Shown piece after piece: positions 1,477 through 6,977 of a stretch of DNA of 64,000 nucleotides; within the stretch, counting starts at the first letter, position 1; every line of letters starts with the position of its first letter. The translations under genes and the position numbers were made by a program. The stretch is taken from assembly GCF_007748195.1 (NCBI RefSeq), contig NZ_CP037920.1, positions 558,001 through 622,000 on the forward strand, in the 5' to 3' direction. The stretch comes from Gimesia aquarii (GTDB taxonomy: Bacteria; Planctomycetota; Planctomycetia; Planctomycetales; Planctomycetaceae). Under the pieces are notes generated by a model. It made no database searches. It had not been told where the DNA came from and saw only the letters and a program-made list of their open reading frames with translations.

Positions 1477-2406
1477 ATGAGATCTGTTGTGGTTTTCTGT
1501 TTCTATTGCATGGCCTGTGTTGTACTTCAGTGTTTTGATCATCCGCAGGTAGTAGCAGATGAAGAGCCAGTAGTGAAACGGACCCGGTTTTATTCAGCGA
1601 CTCCAGAAGGTGCAGAGCCCAAGGTTTTTTATGTCGCAGAAGATTACTATAACACCGGCTCTCCCACCTTCTCTGCGGATGGGCAAAAATTGGCCTTTGA
1701 CGGCTGGAAGTCTCAGGAGGGCGAAAGCTTTTCGAACGTGCAGATTATGGTCGTCAACTCGGATGGGAGTGACTTTAAAGTTCTTGGCCCGGGGGCGATG
1801 CCGAGTTGGTCTCCGGGAGGGAATCGAATCGCATTTTCTCAGCAGTCTCCCTCAGGCGTCGCCATCATGAACGCCGATGGTTCTAACCGTAAAATGATTG
1901 AAACAGGTGGTTGGGGGGCACAGTGGTCACCTGACGGCAAAAAAATTGCTTATCGTGTGTACAAATCAGGAAAATCAAATCTTCGAATCTATGATTTAAT
2001 CGAAGAAACAAAGAGCGATGTGTTTCCCGAAGGGGAAAGCCCCTATTCCATGATTTACTGGAATATGGCATGGTCTCCCGATAGTAACTGGGTTTGTTTT
2101 CTAGGACGAAAAGCGGATAAAACTTATGAGGTCGCTACAGTGAATGTCGCGGGAATGCAAGAAGGATTAAAAGTGCACTTTAAAAGCAAAGTTTCCCCAT
2201 ATCAAGACATGGCCTGGCATCCCCAGGGAGATATGATTGTATTTGGTTCTCCCACATCACCACGCAAACTACTCAAATTTAATCCCGCAGAGGACAAAGC
2301 ACCCGAACCACTCGAAATCAAAGTCGATGGAAACATCAACGGTGACGTCAGTTTCACACCCGATGGTCAACATTTACTGTTTAACGTCCGGGTGGTTCTA
2401 GATTAA
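1477..2406 (+). CDS. Secreted TolB-like PD40 beta-propeller protein
   Basis: 309 residues with an N-terminal hydrophobic signal segment (about 1-25). About six PD40/WD40-like repeats follow, each with the xxSPDGxxIAF type core: TFSADGQKLAFDG, SWSPGGNRIAFSQ, QWSPDGKKIAYRV, AWSPDSNWVCFLG, AWHPQGDMIVFGS and SFTPDGQHLLFNV. This predicts a six-bladed propeller like that of TolB and oligopeptidase N-domains, usually a binding scaffold in the periplasm. No peptidase domain follows. The ATG at 1477 has a GAGGA nearby upstream. The 3' end overlaps the convergent blaR1-like gene by 26 bp, so the two transcripts are antisense to each other there. Confidence 0.82.
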   Translation: MRSVVVFCFYCMACVVLQCFDHPQVVADEEPVVKRTRFYSATPEGAEPKVFYVAEDYYNTGSPTFSADGQKLAFDGWKSQEGESFSNVQIMVVNSDGSDFKVLGPGAMPSWSPGGNRIAFSQQSPSGVAIMNADGSNRKMIETGGWGAQWSPDGKKIAYRVYKSGKSNLRIYDLIEETKSDVFPEGESPYSMIYWNMAWSPDSNWVCFLGRKADKTYEVATVNVAGMQEGLKVHFKSKVSPYQDMAWHPQGDMIVFGSPTSPRKLLKFNPAEDKAPEPLEIKVDGNINGDVSFTPDGQHLLFNVRVVLD

Positions 2407-5400
2407 GCGTCTCTTCCGATTCGGATAGGTTCATGACAGAGGGGCTAATCAGAAGGAAATACCGTTTATGTTTTTTTGGCTCCGGCTGATTTTGGTTAGA
2501 AAACTGGAACGGCAGAAATGCAGGTTCCCTGCCACTAACTTGGTCCGTGATGTCAATCAATACAGATTTCCCGTTGGGAATGGCCATGCTTTTCAGGTTG
2601 GATAAAACATCCAACGCATCATTGGCATTGATGGCCATCGAGAGTCGCAGCGTTTGTTTTTCCGGTAGCTCGGTTCGTAACTGAATTCGAAACGGTGAGT
2701 TTTTTTGAGATTCAAGAGTCGTTTTGAGATCGAATTCTATTGACTGCCCATTGAAAAGTGAGAGTTTCGGGGCTTGCAGAATATTGAGGTGTTCAGTCCG
2801 TTGTGCCATTTGTTTCATTAAGTCAGCATGTTGTAGATCAAGTAGGATTCCTTCTTTTAAATTTCGAGCTTTCAATTGTTTTAAAAGGTCTTGCAGAGCC
2901 CGGACTTCAGATCGTTCCCACTCTTTAAACCATTTCTGTAAATGATCAGTTTGGACCAGTTGAAAATCGAGATAGATCATCAGATCTTGAAAGGCTCTCA
3001 ATTTTTGCAATAACTCAGTAATTTGGTCGTGGGCTTCTCTCGTGTGTCGGACAACCAGAGAAAGTGTTTCTTTATATGCCATGATCGAGCCCGTTTGCTT
3101 TTTTTCATTTCTCCAATTTTCAGGAGTGACGTTTTTCTTGATCAGTTCAATCAATGGTTCAAAACGAGGCTTGACAGGCGGTAGCATCGTTGGAGTAAGC
3201 TTCTGAGAGGTGACGATTTTACGCGGTAAGGGAACTACCAGATCAGCAACCGGATAGGTTTTCGTGATTAAATTGTCCTCGAAATTAGACTCATCAATAA
3301 TAATATGCCCTATGACACCGACATCGCTGTTGACACCGATACCAAACATGAGAAGATCCGTGACTGGTTTGACCTTTTCTAACTGGATCATCAATAAAAG
3401 CACTTGCGGCTTTTTTGCGTTCTGATCCATTTTAAAACCACCTACTAATAGCGTCTCTCCTAATTGAATCTGTGTTGAATCTGCAAACCGAAATTCGTTT
3501 ATCATCGGAAGTTCAACGACCTTCCGTTGTTTCGAATTCAAATCAATGGTGTTCTGTTTCACCACACCTTTGTTTTTTGAGAATGTGATTTCGTATTCGA
3601 GTCTACCTGTTTTTTGATTCCCACCTTTTTCTGGGAACATTGGTCGTGCGTTAAGATTGAAACCATAGTTGTTTAATTGAAAACGTTGTCCGGCGCCTGC
3701 AAACTGATTTTCAAAAACCGGTTTCTCTTTTTGGGCGATGCTCGCTGTTTGACCATTCATCATCGTGATGACAGGAGAGGATAGAAGCGTGCTTTCTGTG
3801 GCTTGTATCATTTTTTGGATTTCTTTAGCACGCTTTGTATCCAGTAATTCATAGATCAGTGATTGACTACGATTGGCAACCAGAGTTTCAAATGTGATGG
3901 CTTTGTTTTCAATCTCTGAACTGTCCGAAAATGGATCATTCGTTTTCGTTGCTCCACGCATGGGGCCAAATTTGTTGACTTCAATGACTTTGACTTCTTT
4001 CCGTCGATCACTGATTTTTGAGATTAATGTTTGTGGAACGGATATGACTTTGATTTTCGTTATGATCTGTAGCTTTGTGAAAACAGACTCAGATAGCTCT
4101 TGTATCGCTTGCGCTGCATGTTTGTGAACACCTGGATCTTCACTCAAAACAATGAAATGATCATCCTTGATGAATAATCTTCCCGCAAAATGGGAGCCAG
4201 CTGCTTTCTTCATTAATGGATTCGCGAGTTGAGTGTTCGGTTGGGGTAAGATTTCCTCTTTTCTTTTCTGCTTGTTCACGAACGAACGGACTTTTTCGAT
4301 CAATTCGGCTTTTGCGCGTGATTCACCTACATCTTTGTAGCCTTTTTCCATTAGCTCTTTGATAGAATAAACACGTACGGTTTGCGCTTTTGGATTTTGT
4401 AATTCTTCTGTTGCGTATAAGAATTTGAGAACCGAAGAGGAAGGCGAACTTGAGATATTTTTATCTTGATGTTGTGTCCTGGTTTGATTCGGTGAACTCG
4501 TCTCCTTCTCCTTACTTTTGTTTTGAATAATCAACAGGTCGGCATTAGTACTCTTCGTCGCTTTTTCAGCTTGTTGGTCCGCTGCAGAAACCACAAAAGC
4601 CGCACCAGGCAATACCGTTGCTGATAAAACGATTAAAACCATCCAGCACCACCAGGGTGTTTGCTTTTGACATCCTTGTCCCAATTTCATAATTCGCTCC
4701 AAACGTTTTGAGGTAATTTCCACCGGACGCACGCCCGGCACCACAGGAACTGATTTCAATGTATGTTTTAACTCCAGCACTTCCAGCAAACATTTTGCAT
4801 ACAAGCCGGGCTCACAATCTAGCTCTGCCAGAACTTCTTCATCACAACACTGCTCAACTTCAAGCTTCAAACGCCGTCCCGTAAACCAGACCAGCGGATG
4901 AAACCACCACACAATCGAGGCTGTCAGTTGCAACAAACCAACCCATAAGTCACCCCGTCGAATATGAATCAACTCATGCGCCAAAATAGGTTCCAGTTCT
5001 TTCTTTGAACGAGAATCGACAATCGCTTGAGGCAAAATGATCGTGGGGCGAAATAATCCAATCACTGCCGGTCCGATGCGGCTTTTAGTGATTAACAGCC
5101 TGACTCTTCGTTTGACTCGTAATTCCACACTTAGACGCGACAGTAATTGATCCAGTTCTGGATCATGAACCATACTCGAAGTGCGCAATATTTGCCGACA
5201 TTGCCAGTAACGGATCACCATCACAGCCACAATGCTGGCTGCGATCAAGCCCCAGAGAACAAATCCGCTATACCAGAAAAATGGGCGCGCTGAATACCAT
5301 TCTTGTTGAGTGAGTGTGGTATCAGGTTTCAAAGCAGAATTCTCAATGTCCGATAAGGGATTCTTTTTCTGAGATCCATCATGAACGGTAATTTGAACGG

Positions 5401-5740
5401 CCGGTGCTGTTGCCTCTACATCCGGCAGCTTCTGCACATCATCGCCAATGAGTTGTCGAATCGATTCCGTCAGAGTGAGCGCGTGCTGGTCTTGATTTGT
5501 GAGAGCTTGGTGTGCTCCTGGTCTCTGAATTCCCTGCACCCAGCAAAATAGACCACTGGAACTGCTCCATAGGGGAGGCGTCATAAATTTCAGTAAGACA
5601 ATTAACCACAATATAAAAGTCAGATGTGATTGCCGGAATTTGATAAATTTACAGATCAGAAAGACGGCAAACACTAACAACGAGCATTGCCAGAACTGCT
5701 GCCAGATAATTTGGACGAACGTTGATTCACTCAGATTCAT
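2381..5740 (-). CDS. blaR1: BlaR1-type M56 membrane metallopeptidase fused to secretin-like repeats
   Basis: 1119 residues. Hydrophobic helices lie near 10-32, 40-58, 153-178, 269-286 and 364-386. Between them is the M56 zinc protease core with HELIH at 255-259 and the downstream EQCCDEE (296-302) expected to give the third ligand. BlaR1/MecR1 proteins sense a signal outside the membrane and cleave their repressor BlaI. Instead of a beta-lactam-binding domain, the 730 residues after the last helix hold secretin-like segments: SSPVITMMNGQTASI (654-668) with LGETLLVGG (760-768), then TKTYPVADLVVPLP with GSIMAYKETLSLVVRHTREA (about 827-903). Its ATG has GGAGG upstream and lies inside blaI (14-bp overlap), so the two are translationally coupled. 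The ligand is unknown; it is probably not a penicillin sensor. Confidence 0.85.
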   Translation of the reverse strand: MNLSESTFVQIIWQQFWQCSLLVFAVFLICKFIKFRQSHLTFILWLIVLLKFMTPPLWSSSSGLFCWVQGIQRPGAHQALTNQDQHALTLTESIRQLIGDDVQKLPDVEATAPAVQITVHDGSQKKNPLSDIENSALKPDTTLTQQEWYSARPFFWYSGFVLWGLIAASIVAVMVIRYWQCRQILRTSSMVHDPELDQLLSRLSVELRVKRRVRLLITKSRIGPAVIGLFRPTIILPQAIVDSRSKKELEPILAHELIHIRRGDLWVGLLQLTASIVWWFHPLVWFTGRRLKLEVEQCCDEEVLAELDCEPGLYAKCLLEVLELKHTLKSVPVVPGVRPVEITSKRLERIMKLGQGCQKQTPWWCWMVLIVLSATVLPGAAFVVSAADQQAEKATKSTNADLLIIQNKSKEKETSSPNQTRTQHQDKNISSSPSSSVLKFLYATEELQNPKAQTVRVYSIKELMEKGYKDVGESRAKAELIEKVRSFVNKQKRKEEILPQPNTQLANPLMKKAAGSHFAGRLFIKDDHFIVLSEDPGVHKHAAQAIQELSESVFTKLQIITKIKVISVPQTLISKISDRRKEVKVIEVNKFGPMRGATKTNDPFSDSSEIENKAITFETLVANRSQSLIYELLDTKRAKEIQKMIQATESTLLSSPVITMMNGQTASIAQKEKPVFENQFAGAGQRFQLNNYGFNLNARPMFPEKGGNQKTGRLEYEITFSKNKGVVKQNTIDLNSKQRKVVELPMINEFRFADSTQIQLGETLLVGGFKMDQNAKKPQVLLLMIQLEKVKPVTDLLMFGIGVNSDVGVIGHIIIDESNFEDNLITKTYPVADLVVPLPRKIVTSQKLTPTMLPPVKPRFEPLIELIKKNVTPENWRNEKKQTGSIMAYKETLSLVVRHTREAHDQITELLQKLRAFQDLMIYLDFQLVQTDHLQKWFKEWERSEVRALQDLLKQLKARNLKEGILLDLQHADLMKQMAQRTEHLNILQAPKLSLFNGQSIEFDLKTTLESQKNSPFRIQLRTELPEKQTLRLSMAINANDALDVLSNLKSMAIPNGKSVLIDITDQVSGREPAFLPFQFSNQNQPEPKKHKRYFLLISPSVMNLSESEETLNLEPPGR

Positions 5741-6119
5741 TTCGTTCCTCCGTCAATTGATCAAGCAAAGTCTTTAACGCATCTAAATCTTCCTGGCTGA
5801 CGTTTCGATCTTCGATTAAATGTTGCATTAAAGGGAAAGTTTCTCCTGCGAAGAGGCGGTCAACCAGATCATCCACAGTTTCACGAATGACAGTACGTGG
5901 TTTCACACGAGGTGAATAAACACGAGTTCGGCCTTCGAGCTTCACATTGACATACCCCTTTTGCTCCAGTCTTCTTAAGTACGTCTGGACGGTTGTGAAA
6001 TCAATGCCTCGCGATTCTGGAAACGATTCAAACACCTCACGTACTGTGCCGTGTTTCAGTTCCCAGAGTGCACGGGCGACTTCGATTTCGCCTTTGGATA
6101 GTGCGGGTCGTTCTGTCAT
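5727..6119 (-). CDS. blaI: BlaI/MecI/CopY-family transcriptional repressor
   Basis: 130 residues from the ATG at 6119, preceded by GGAG at five bases; a TTG at 6134 is in frame but has a poorer site. The N-terminus is the winged helix of the family (LSKGEIEVARALWELKHGTV, then TTVQTYLRRLEQKGYVNVK), where the recognition helix inserts into TACAnnTGTA operators. The C-terminal part (about 85-130) fits the dimerisation domain. Repression is relieved when the partner M56 protease becomes active. Two matching operators sit directly upstream, so it almost certainly represses its own operon. Confidence 0.92.
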   Translation of the reverse strand: MTERPALSKGEIEVARALWELKHGTVREVFESFPESRGIDFTTVQTYLRRLEQKGYVNVKLEGRTRVYSPRVKPRTVIRETVDDLVDRLFAGETFPLMQHLIEDRNVSQEDLDALKTLLDQLTEERNESE

Positions 6120-6132
6120 CGTTTCTCCATTC

Positions 6133-6148
6133 AATTACAACTGTAATT
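6133..6148. promoter_or_regulatory. BlaI operator 1 (proximal)
   Basis: AATTACAACTGTAATT, a near-perfect 16-bp inverted repeat containing the TACAnnTGTA core of the BlaI/MecI family. It lies 13 bp before the blaI ATG and covers the predicted transcription start. Confidence 0.85.
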
Positions 6149-6153
6149 GTGGA

Positions 6154-6181
6154 AGTTTAATTACATTTGTAATTGAGTCAA
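6154..6181 (-). promoter_or_regulatory. Candidate blaI-blaR1 promoter
   Basis: On the minus strand TTGACT (6181-6176) and TAAACT (6159-6154) are separated by 16 bp. The start would fall near 6147, inside operator 1. The overlap with both operators makes this placement convincing despite the weak -10. Confidence 0.65.
6159..6174. promoter_or_regulatory. BlaI operator 2 (promoter spacer)
   Basis: AATTACATTTGTAATT, the second 16-bp inverted repeat with a TACAnnTGTA core. Its centre is 26 bp from operator 1. It fills the spacer between the candidate -35 and -10 boxes of the blaI promoter. Confidence 0.85.
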
Positions 6182-6434: not shown

Positions 6435-6977
6435 ATGAGTGTCCGATCTGCCAGACCGAAAGTAAATGATTTGATCTTTCGCTTGATTGGGCGTTCTATA
6501 CATCCCGAGCTTTACACCACTTGCACTTCGGCGGAGGTGCATCAGAAGAATTATTCTGCTGTATTGAAGATCTGTGAAACGGGGCATATTGCCAGTATTC
6601 AGCACAAAGAAAAAACCGTTTGTGAGATTCTGACTTCGTTTCAGAATCCCCTTCCCAGCCAGAAACGAGTGCTGGAAAAGCCCGTTCGTGGCTGTCGTTC
6701 TGAATCTGCACAATTGGAATCGGGGCTCTATTATCAGGTCAGCTACCAGTTAGAAGAGCTTGATTATGTGATTTTTAATAATCTGCATGAAGAATATATG
6801 ATGGATTCCCAAAAGGCCGATCTGGCTTATCATTTTGTCTCAGAAAGCCGTATCACTCCCGGGGCTCTAAGTATCGTTGATTTTGAAGCGAACCAGACAA
6901 GCCTGCTGATTCATGCATTTCACACGTTTCCCGAAGAATTAGCGGTTGTGAAAACACAGTCTTTGTTTGAATTTTAA
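6435..6977 (+). CDS. DUF2617-like protein of unknown function
   Basis: 180 residues, soluble, no signal peptide or membrane segment. The start MSVRSARPKVNDLIFRLIGRSIHPEL and the late acidic/aromatic part (DYVIFNNLHEEYMM) remind me of the DUF2617 family found in planctomycetes and actinobacteria; this is recalled, not searched. No catalytic motif is evident. It is monocistronic, between the divergent blaI operon and a secreted-protein gene, with no clear functional link to either. Confidence 0.6.
   Translation: MSVRSARPKVNDLIFRLIGRSIHPELYTTCTSAEVHQKNYSAVLKICETGHIASIQHKEKTVCEILTSFQNPLPSQKRVLEKPVRGCRSESAQLESGLYYQVSYQLEELDYVIFNNLHEEYMMDSQKADLAYHFVSESRITPGALSIVDFEANQTSLLIHAFHTFPEELAVVKTQSLFEF

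Follow-up and report, generated by a model that had tools for sequence, protein, structure and literature searches.

A BlaR1-type M56 protease with a secretin-like tail lacking the lip motif, encoded beside blaI in Gimesia aquarii

Main finding

An open reading frame of Gimesia aquarii is predicted to encode a BlaR1-type M56 protease in which secretin parts take the place of the antibiotic-binding domain, which suggests that what this protease watches is the envelope machinery of the cell itself, not an antibiotic. In the reading that we prefer, with a probability of about 0.42 for the scheme as a whole, the protein would be a BlaR1-type switch with a lip-less secretin sensor, reporting the state of an envelope machine via BlaI. 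As judged from sequence comparisons, the combination is an apparently new variant of the M56/BlaI switch with a secretin-derived sensor. No report combining M56, BlaR1 and secretin, or secretin, sensor domain and M56, was found in the open literature; the subscription literature was mostly outside the search and novelty is unproven.

Gene and domain organisation

The window is the whole stretch of DNA that was analysed (64,000 nucleotides), and all coordinates below refer to it. Conservation of protein features was scored on alignment A1, which comprises 10 of the 11 orthologs together with the protein itself (the longer copy of genome G010 was left out). The features are as follows.

2381..5740, minus strand: M56 protease / secretin-like sensor fusion, ATG start, 1119 aa (ORF and Pfam)
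4577..5740, minus strand: residues 1-388, membrane segments and M56 zinc-protease core (Pfam M56 at 18-333, E 2.9e-36; hydropathy)
4964..4978, minus strand: HELIH, residues 255-259 (invariant in 11 aligned orthologs)
4841..4855, minus strand: ExxxD, residues 296-300 (invariant in 11 aligned orthologs; BlaR1-like motif, PMC9834060)
4241..4576, minus strand: variable linker, about residues 389-500 (mean pairwise identity 29%, 11 orthologs)
3371..4243, minus strand: predicted secretin-like module 1 (N-domain-like part and core), about residues 500-790 (AlphaFold, Foldseek/VIA)
3413..3808, minus strand: Pfam Secretin match, residues 645-776, profile positions 3-129 of 169 (PF00263)
3746..3757, minus strand: NGQT loop, residues 662-665 (motif search)
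3230..3256, minus strand: YPVADLVVP motif, residues 829-837, common to the giant planctomycete secretin (motif search, alignment)
2981..3274, minus strand: predicted N1-type ring-building domain, residues 823-920 (VIA against 3ezj_A; profile match to the giant secretin)
2426..2986, minus strand: predicted secretin-like core 2, residues 919-1105, without lip motif (predicted fold, lip-motif search)
2741..2752, minus strand: NGQS loop, residues 997-1000 (motif search)
5727..6134, minus strand: BlaI/MecI-type repressor, ORF from TTG, conserved ATG at about 6119 (Pfam Penicillinase_R 2e-27; start alignment)
6136..6145, no strand assigned: proximal operator TACAnnTGTA (ortholog alignment, pattern search)
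6162..6171, no strand assigned: distal operator TACAnnTGTA, between -35-like TTGACT and -10-like TAAACT (alignment, pattern search)

A divergent DUF2617 gene (6435-6977), with 85% identity or more in most relatives compared, lies upstream of blaI, and the intergenic region with the operators is common to both. At the other end, a convergent gene for a PD40 beta-propeller (1477-2406) runs into the end of the protease gene, with an overlap of 26 bases. A partnership with this neighbour is not argued, because relatives have 1 to 3 copies of it in tandem and it stays where the protease was lost.

Protease core and comparison with BlaR1

BlaR1 is an antibiotic receptor. The sequence-only reading had seen an intact M56 core in the present protein, and this was borne out: the Pfam match scores 125.6 bits against a cut-off of 31, and HELIH is followed by E296xxxD300, ExxxD being found in 11 of 11 aligned sequences. 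The second His of HELIH and E296 are 37 residues apart, a step equal to that from H205 to E242 of the protease motifs in S. aureus BlaR1 (PMC9834060). The NCBIfam model blaR1_generic gave 101 bits against a cut-off of 400, covering residues 123-393 only. Hydropathy peaks were located at about 11-60, 153-181 and 362-388, with an additional weaker one at 796-815 within the folded tail. This pattern agrees with the membrane pattern of BlaR1, whose protease is turned toward the cytoplasm and whose C-terminal sensor is outside (PMC9834060), so the fusion tail would be on the periplasmic side.

The fusion resembles BlaR1/MecR1 by its M56 core, its equally spaced HEXXH and ExxxD motifs and its four-segment membrane pattern, and the BlaR1/MecR1-BlaI/MecI systems by the overlap of its gene with blaI and by the TACAnnTGTA operators. 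It differs in its sensor, which appears secretin-derived and not penicillin-binding, and in that no lactamase or PBP gene is present in its operon. The proposal that about 730 residues replace the beta-lactam-binding domain held up, since the tail (residues 389-1119, 731 aa) carries secretin-derived parts at the place of the BlaR1 sensor. A penicillin-binding domain in the tail, which would have contradicted that proposal, was not found by Pfam and motif scans, and the predicted fold contains none. The Pfam scan of the fusion protein, read up to E 1, returned neither a transpeptidase nor a beta-lactamase, and no ordered SxxK-SxN-KTG set was found in it (SxxK and SxN are scattered, and the single KTG, at 710, precedes any ordered set).

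Secretin nature of the tail

The Pfam Secretin match (PF00263) has an E-value of 5.7e-7 and 29.7 bits against a cut-off of 27.5; Secretin_N remained under its cut-off (E 0.064) and STN gave no match in the fusion protein, STN matches being present, mostly under cut-off, in several fused relatives. Of the two resemblances first put forward for the tail, secretin or STN, the former is thus retained and the latter is not, 'secretin' being the better label because STN is unmatched in the protein itself. Both of the NGQ(T/S) loops noticed at the outset are present, the first starting at 662, one residue away from the number first given, and the second at 997.

Structure prediction of the tail, proposed as a check in the sequence-only reading, pointed the same way. 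AlphaFold models were obtained for residues 430-1119 (mean pLDDT 68.5, pTM 0.39) and 790-1119 (mean pLDDT 71.4, pTM 0.65), and at Foldseek E ≤ 0.001 they matched exclusively secretins or secretin-bearing complexes (29 of 29 rows for the whole-tail model and 31 of 31 for the C-half model); for the T3SS, T2SS and BfpB rows the entry only was named, and we take the matched chain to be the secretin. Using VIA, the first half was aligned to GspD 5wq8_A (Z 9.1, rmsd 8.7, 202 aligned), the second half to BfpB 9u5s_A (Z 8.4, rmsd 6.1, 207 aligned) and the N1 of the second half to the GspD N-domain 3ezj_A (Z 8.0, rmsd 2.0, 67 aligned), but Z values of 7-9 are near the level common for unrelated models, those obtained here are middling by themselves, and the absence of other folds in VIA-align was given no weight as evidence. 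Chain-wide TM-scores are low because the domain arrangement differs.

The secretin assignment draws its weight from the agreement of sequence, fold and relatives. The Pfam match was considered not to be due to chance because it passes the curated cut-off, independent fused relatives give stronger PF00263 matches, both halves fold as secretins and orthologs exist in genus-mates. Core 2 itself was not matched by Pfam and was assigned by predicted fold only. Modelled in this way, the tail reads as two secretin-derived modules, namely an N-domain with a core, then an N1 domain behind YPVADLVVP with a second core. An internal duplication of the two modules was not supported by profile comparison, where module 1 matched module 2 weakly (6.5% probability).

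The tail is similar to secretins (PF00263; GspD, PilQ, InvG, RcpA/CpaC) in its N1-type domain, its core fold and its PF00263 score over cut-off; it is unlike them in being tethered behind an inner-membrane protease, in having two modules per chain and in the lack of the lip motif.

Missing lip motif and the giant planctomycete secretin

Pore-forming secretins carry a lip motif of the P-x-L-G-x-I-P-x-L-G type. Past residue 390, this pattern was found in 0 of the 20 M56-secretin fusions tested (including L083 and L038, both cut at contig ends), and it is present in all six of this genome's secretins with a Pfam match extending to the profile end; it is absent from a seventh secretin-like ORF (362 aa). 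In the 9 complete genomes of the genus, the PF00263 matches of M56 ORFs all end at profile positions 119-129 of 169 (9 of 9, frames checked); of the 77 matches in these genomes (one below cut-off), 45 stand-alone ones span positions 1-168/169. The lip is missing outside fusions as well, since some stand-alone proteins stop short likewise. The strict motif occurs in 36 of 94 giant-secretin and other stand-alone ORFs, many of which are cut or from other families.

What we call the giant planctomycete secretin is, in this genome, a 1703-aa ORF (G000:C1, L175:5516-10627) with YPVADLVVP, N1 and the lip motif; an open frame of this type (1696-1728 aa) occurs once in each of the 9 complete genus genomes. 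The fusion shares with it the YPVADLVVP motif and the N1 domain, and differs from it since the giant secretin keeps the lip motif and has no protease. The pattern YPVxDLVxP was found in 18 of 20 fusions. Among the secretin ORFs of this genome that were tested, the N1 profile of the fusion matched the giant secretin only (3.8e-21), whereas the profiles of both cores found no secretin of this genome.

blaI, operators and candidate targets

The blaI gene is directly upstream of the fusion gene and overlaps it by 14 bases. Both TACAnnTGTA sites ahead of it are invariant in the 10 aligned orthologs (10 of 12 loci, G005 and G011 being left out). The operator claim is based on this conservation because the bare 10-mer pair in the window alone could be chance, two or more copies having been obtained in 9 of 100 shuffles. 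Given conserved operators ahead of a blaI that overlaps the protease gene, the blaI-M56 operon is probably self-repressed. The operator pattern is without excess in this genome (13 matches, against 11 for a reversed-pattern control), giving no sign of a trans regulon, and a longer promoter-operator pattern recovered the blaI locus in all 6 of the genomes searched, plus one other site with 2 mismatches. Exact operators away from this locus in G001, G012 and G011 (L199, L201, L205) were rejected as targets, being beside unrelated genes. Defence-system models did not match the protease, and matched BlaI only weakly, on DNA-binding parts of CARF/Csa3 models (best E 1e-4).

Distribution among relatives

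Orthologs of the fusion were found in 11 of 16 genus-mates, with the same gene order at the loci examined; the full-length frame is kept in 12 genomes, this one included, and the G005 ortholog is cut at its N-terminus by a contig end. Loss was observed at four loci (L234-L237, from G003, G008, G012 and G001, respectively). G001, G008 and G012 keep blaI and both operators and lack the protease, of which short start remnants persist in G001 and G012 and none in G008; the sensor is dispensable, because these three genus-mates do without it. In G003 both blaI and the protease are lost, and in G015 (74% complete) the anchor neighbour could not be located. A 107-aa piece of fusion-type tail was seen in G007.

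The survey of M56 proteins with the same tail that the sequence-only reading had called for returned fusions in genus-mates and, as far as sequence profiles tell, in other Planctomycetota. When genome contigs were searched with the tail, 9 of the 67 loci found were M56 fusions by sequence profile (L078-L083, L085, L119 and L136, with L083 truncated where its contig begins), and two further ones were found in G017, without a PF00263 match, and in G328. PF00263 is over cut-off in L085 (2.4e-12), L119 (2.3e-12) and L178 (4e-10) and below it in L081; L082 and L136 have no such match and were called as fusions on the N1 profile. Beside secretin parts, L178:5580-9479 (G328) carries SLBB and L119:2713-6849 a POTRA match just below cut-off, and L081 combines a pilus-secretin N-domain with a PDZ. 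At L079:3260-5104 (same place as L067), a tail-only copy of 614 aa directly follows the fused gene.

A second, distant family of M56-secretin fusions (742-769 aa) was identified by PF00263 in 6 of the 9 complete genomes and is also present in G004; it accompanies BlaI at L224-L230 (G007, G013, G009, G014, G012, G016 and G004) and has two tandem copies in G009. In a tree built from 41 M56 domains, from which a single M56 of this genome without the trimming motif is missing, this family is far from the first. A topology with all 20 fused rows in one clade was rejected (p-AU 0.014), so secretin recruitment by M56 proteases was repeated, with at least two origins; a single clade for the 14 fusions of the first kind was not rejected (p-AU 0.127).

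Separate genes are also found side by side. In G014 (L232:30-5415), blaI is followed, at distances of a few bases, by an M56 gene and then by a stand-alone secretin-like thioredoxin-domain protein; in G010 (L077:57-4937), an M56 gene is followed by a separate secretin-like protein, the contig starting before the blaI position. Both secretin-like proteins have thioredoxin, STN and N1 parts. In G007 (L233:1710-5784), a pair of BlaI and M56 (the M56 of 606 aa) is about 1 kb away from a truncated 308-aa secretin-like gene, with similar positions in G013 and G014. No unfused M56-secretin neighbourhood was seen among the mapped M56 and secretin positions of this genome.

Proposed mechanism and alternatives

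The protein would be an inner-membrane protease of the BlaR1 type, whose periplasmic sensor consists of paired secretin-derived modules without the region for outer-membrane insertion. By analogy with BlaR1, a change in the tail would free the cytoplasmic protease, which would cleave BlaI and derepress the blaI-M56 operon. The least certain step is the input: the N1/core modules may contact ring-forming secretin subunits, most likely those of the giant secretin, or assemble into a ring of their own. The cell would in this way read the state of an envelope machine; that the sensor reads a periplasmic or outer-membrane state is plausible from its domain type and from the SLBB, STN, pilus-secretin and possible POTRA parts predicted in fused relatives.

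Psp, an inner-membrane stress system, forms complexes with mislocalised multimeric secretins (PMC5596341), which shows that inner-membrane monitoring of secretins does occur in bacteria. The likeness to Psp (PspBC) is limited to the proposed logic, an inner-membrane sensor of secretin state, and no sequence relation is claimed. Several results were counted against our preferred reading: the two modules match each other weakly by profile, the core profiles miss the secretins of this genome, the structural Z values are 7-9 with low TM-scores, operators show no excess, the sensor is dispensable, and the tail diverges fast, as would be expected with a changing ligand no less than with a constant secretin partner.

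Alternatively, the tail may sense another periplasmic ligand (exported substrate, pilin-like protein, peptidoglycan or envelope polymer), its modules being a mere scaffold without secretin contact, an explanation that we regard as a serious if tentative contender. Over 11 orthologs, mean pairwise identity falls from 78% in the catalytic core to 38-39% in the two secretin cores, and between this genome and G002 dN/dS rises from 0.10 in the protease core to 0.30 in module 1, 0.34 in N1 and 0.48 in core 2 (0.04 for BlaI, 0.03-0.16 for four neighbours), as expected for a changing ligand. This genome has 13 M56 proteins (the others being L017-L028), and the tails of the others are varied, 8 of the 12 having been scanned and found to contain HEAT repeats, CarboxypepD_reg with thioredoxin-like parts, or WD40/PD40-like parts. 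Against this explanation, the slowest-changing part of the tail is YPVADLVVP/N1 (59-61%), precisely what is common to the giant secretin.

The modules could also oligomerise the protease into a ring, signalling by self-assembly without a specific ligand. N1 domains build rings in secretins, and an N1 fold was found in the tail; this proposal is nevertheless unlikely, as BlaR1 acts as a domain-swapped dimer (PMC9834060).

That the tail is drifting, its sensor role gone, is quite improbable: divergence is fast, and the gene was removed with short remnants in at least two genus-mates and is absent in others, but the full-length frame persists in 12 genomes with dN/dS of 0.15-0.48 across the tail parts, below 1. 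The tail is fast-changing yet kept.

Despite its Pfam Secretin match and fold, a true outer-membrane secretin tethered to the protease is very improbable, given the lip count of 0 of 20, a Pfam match that stops at position 129 of 169, and a tail that comes after the last inner-membrane segment. A beta-lactam receptor, which the BlaR1-like M56 core and the BlaI partner would suit, can be all but dismissed, with no penicillin-binding domain by Pfam or fold and SxxK-SxN-KTG unordered.

Significance

Beyond the single protein, Planctomycetes may have repeatedly made envelope-surveillance proteases, in which an M56 protease fused or operon-paired with lip-less machine parts (secretin, N1, STN, SLBB, perhaps POTRA) would use them as decoy subunits: by joining or touching the genuine machine, they would signal its state of assembly to BlaI. 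This generalisation is speculative, and we hold it to be doubtful at present. If the M56-secretin pairing is indeed recurrent, the same proteolytic switch would be used for watching machinery of the outer membrane. Envelope and secretion are little understood in this phylum, where the giant secretin is a concrete candidate partner.
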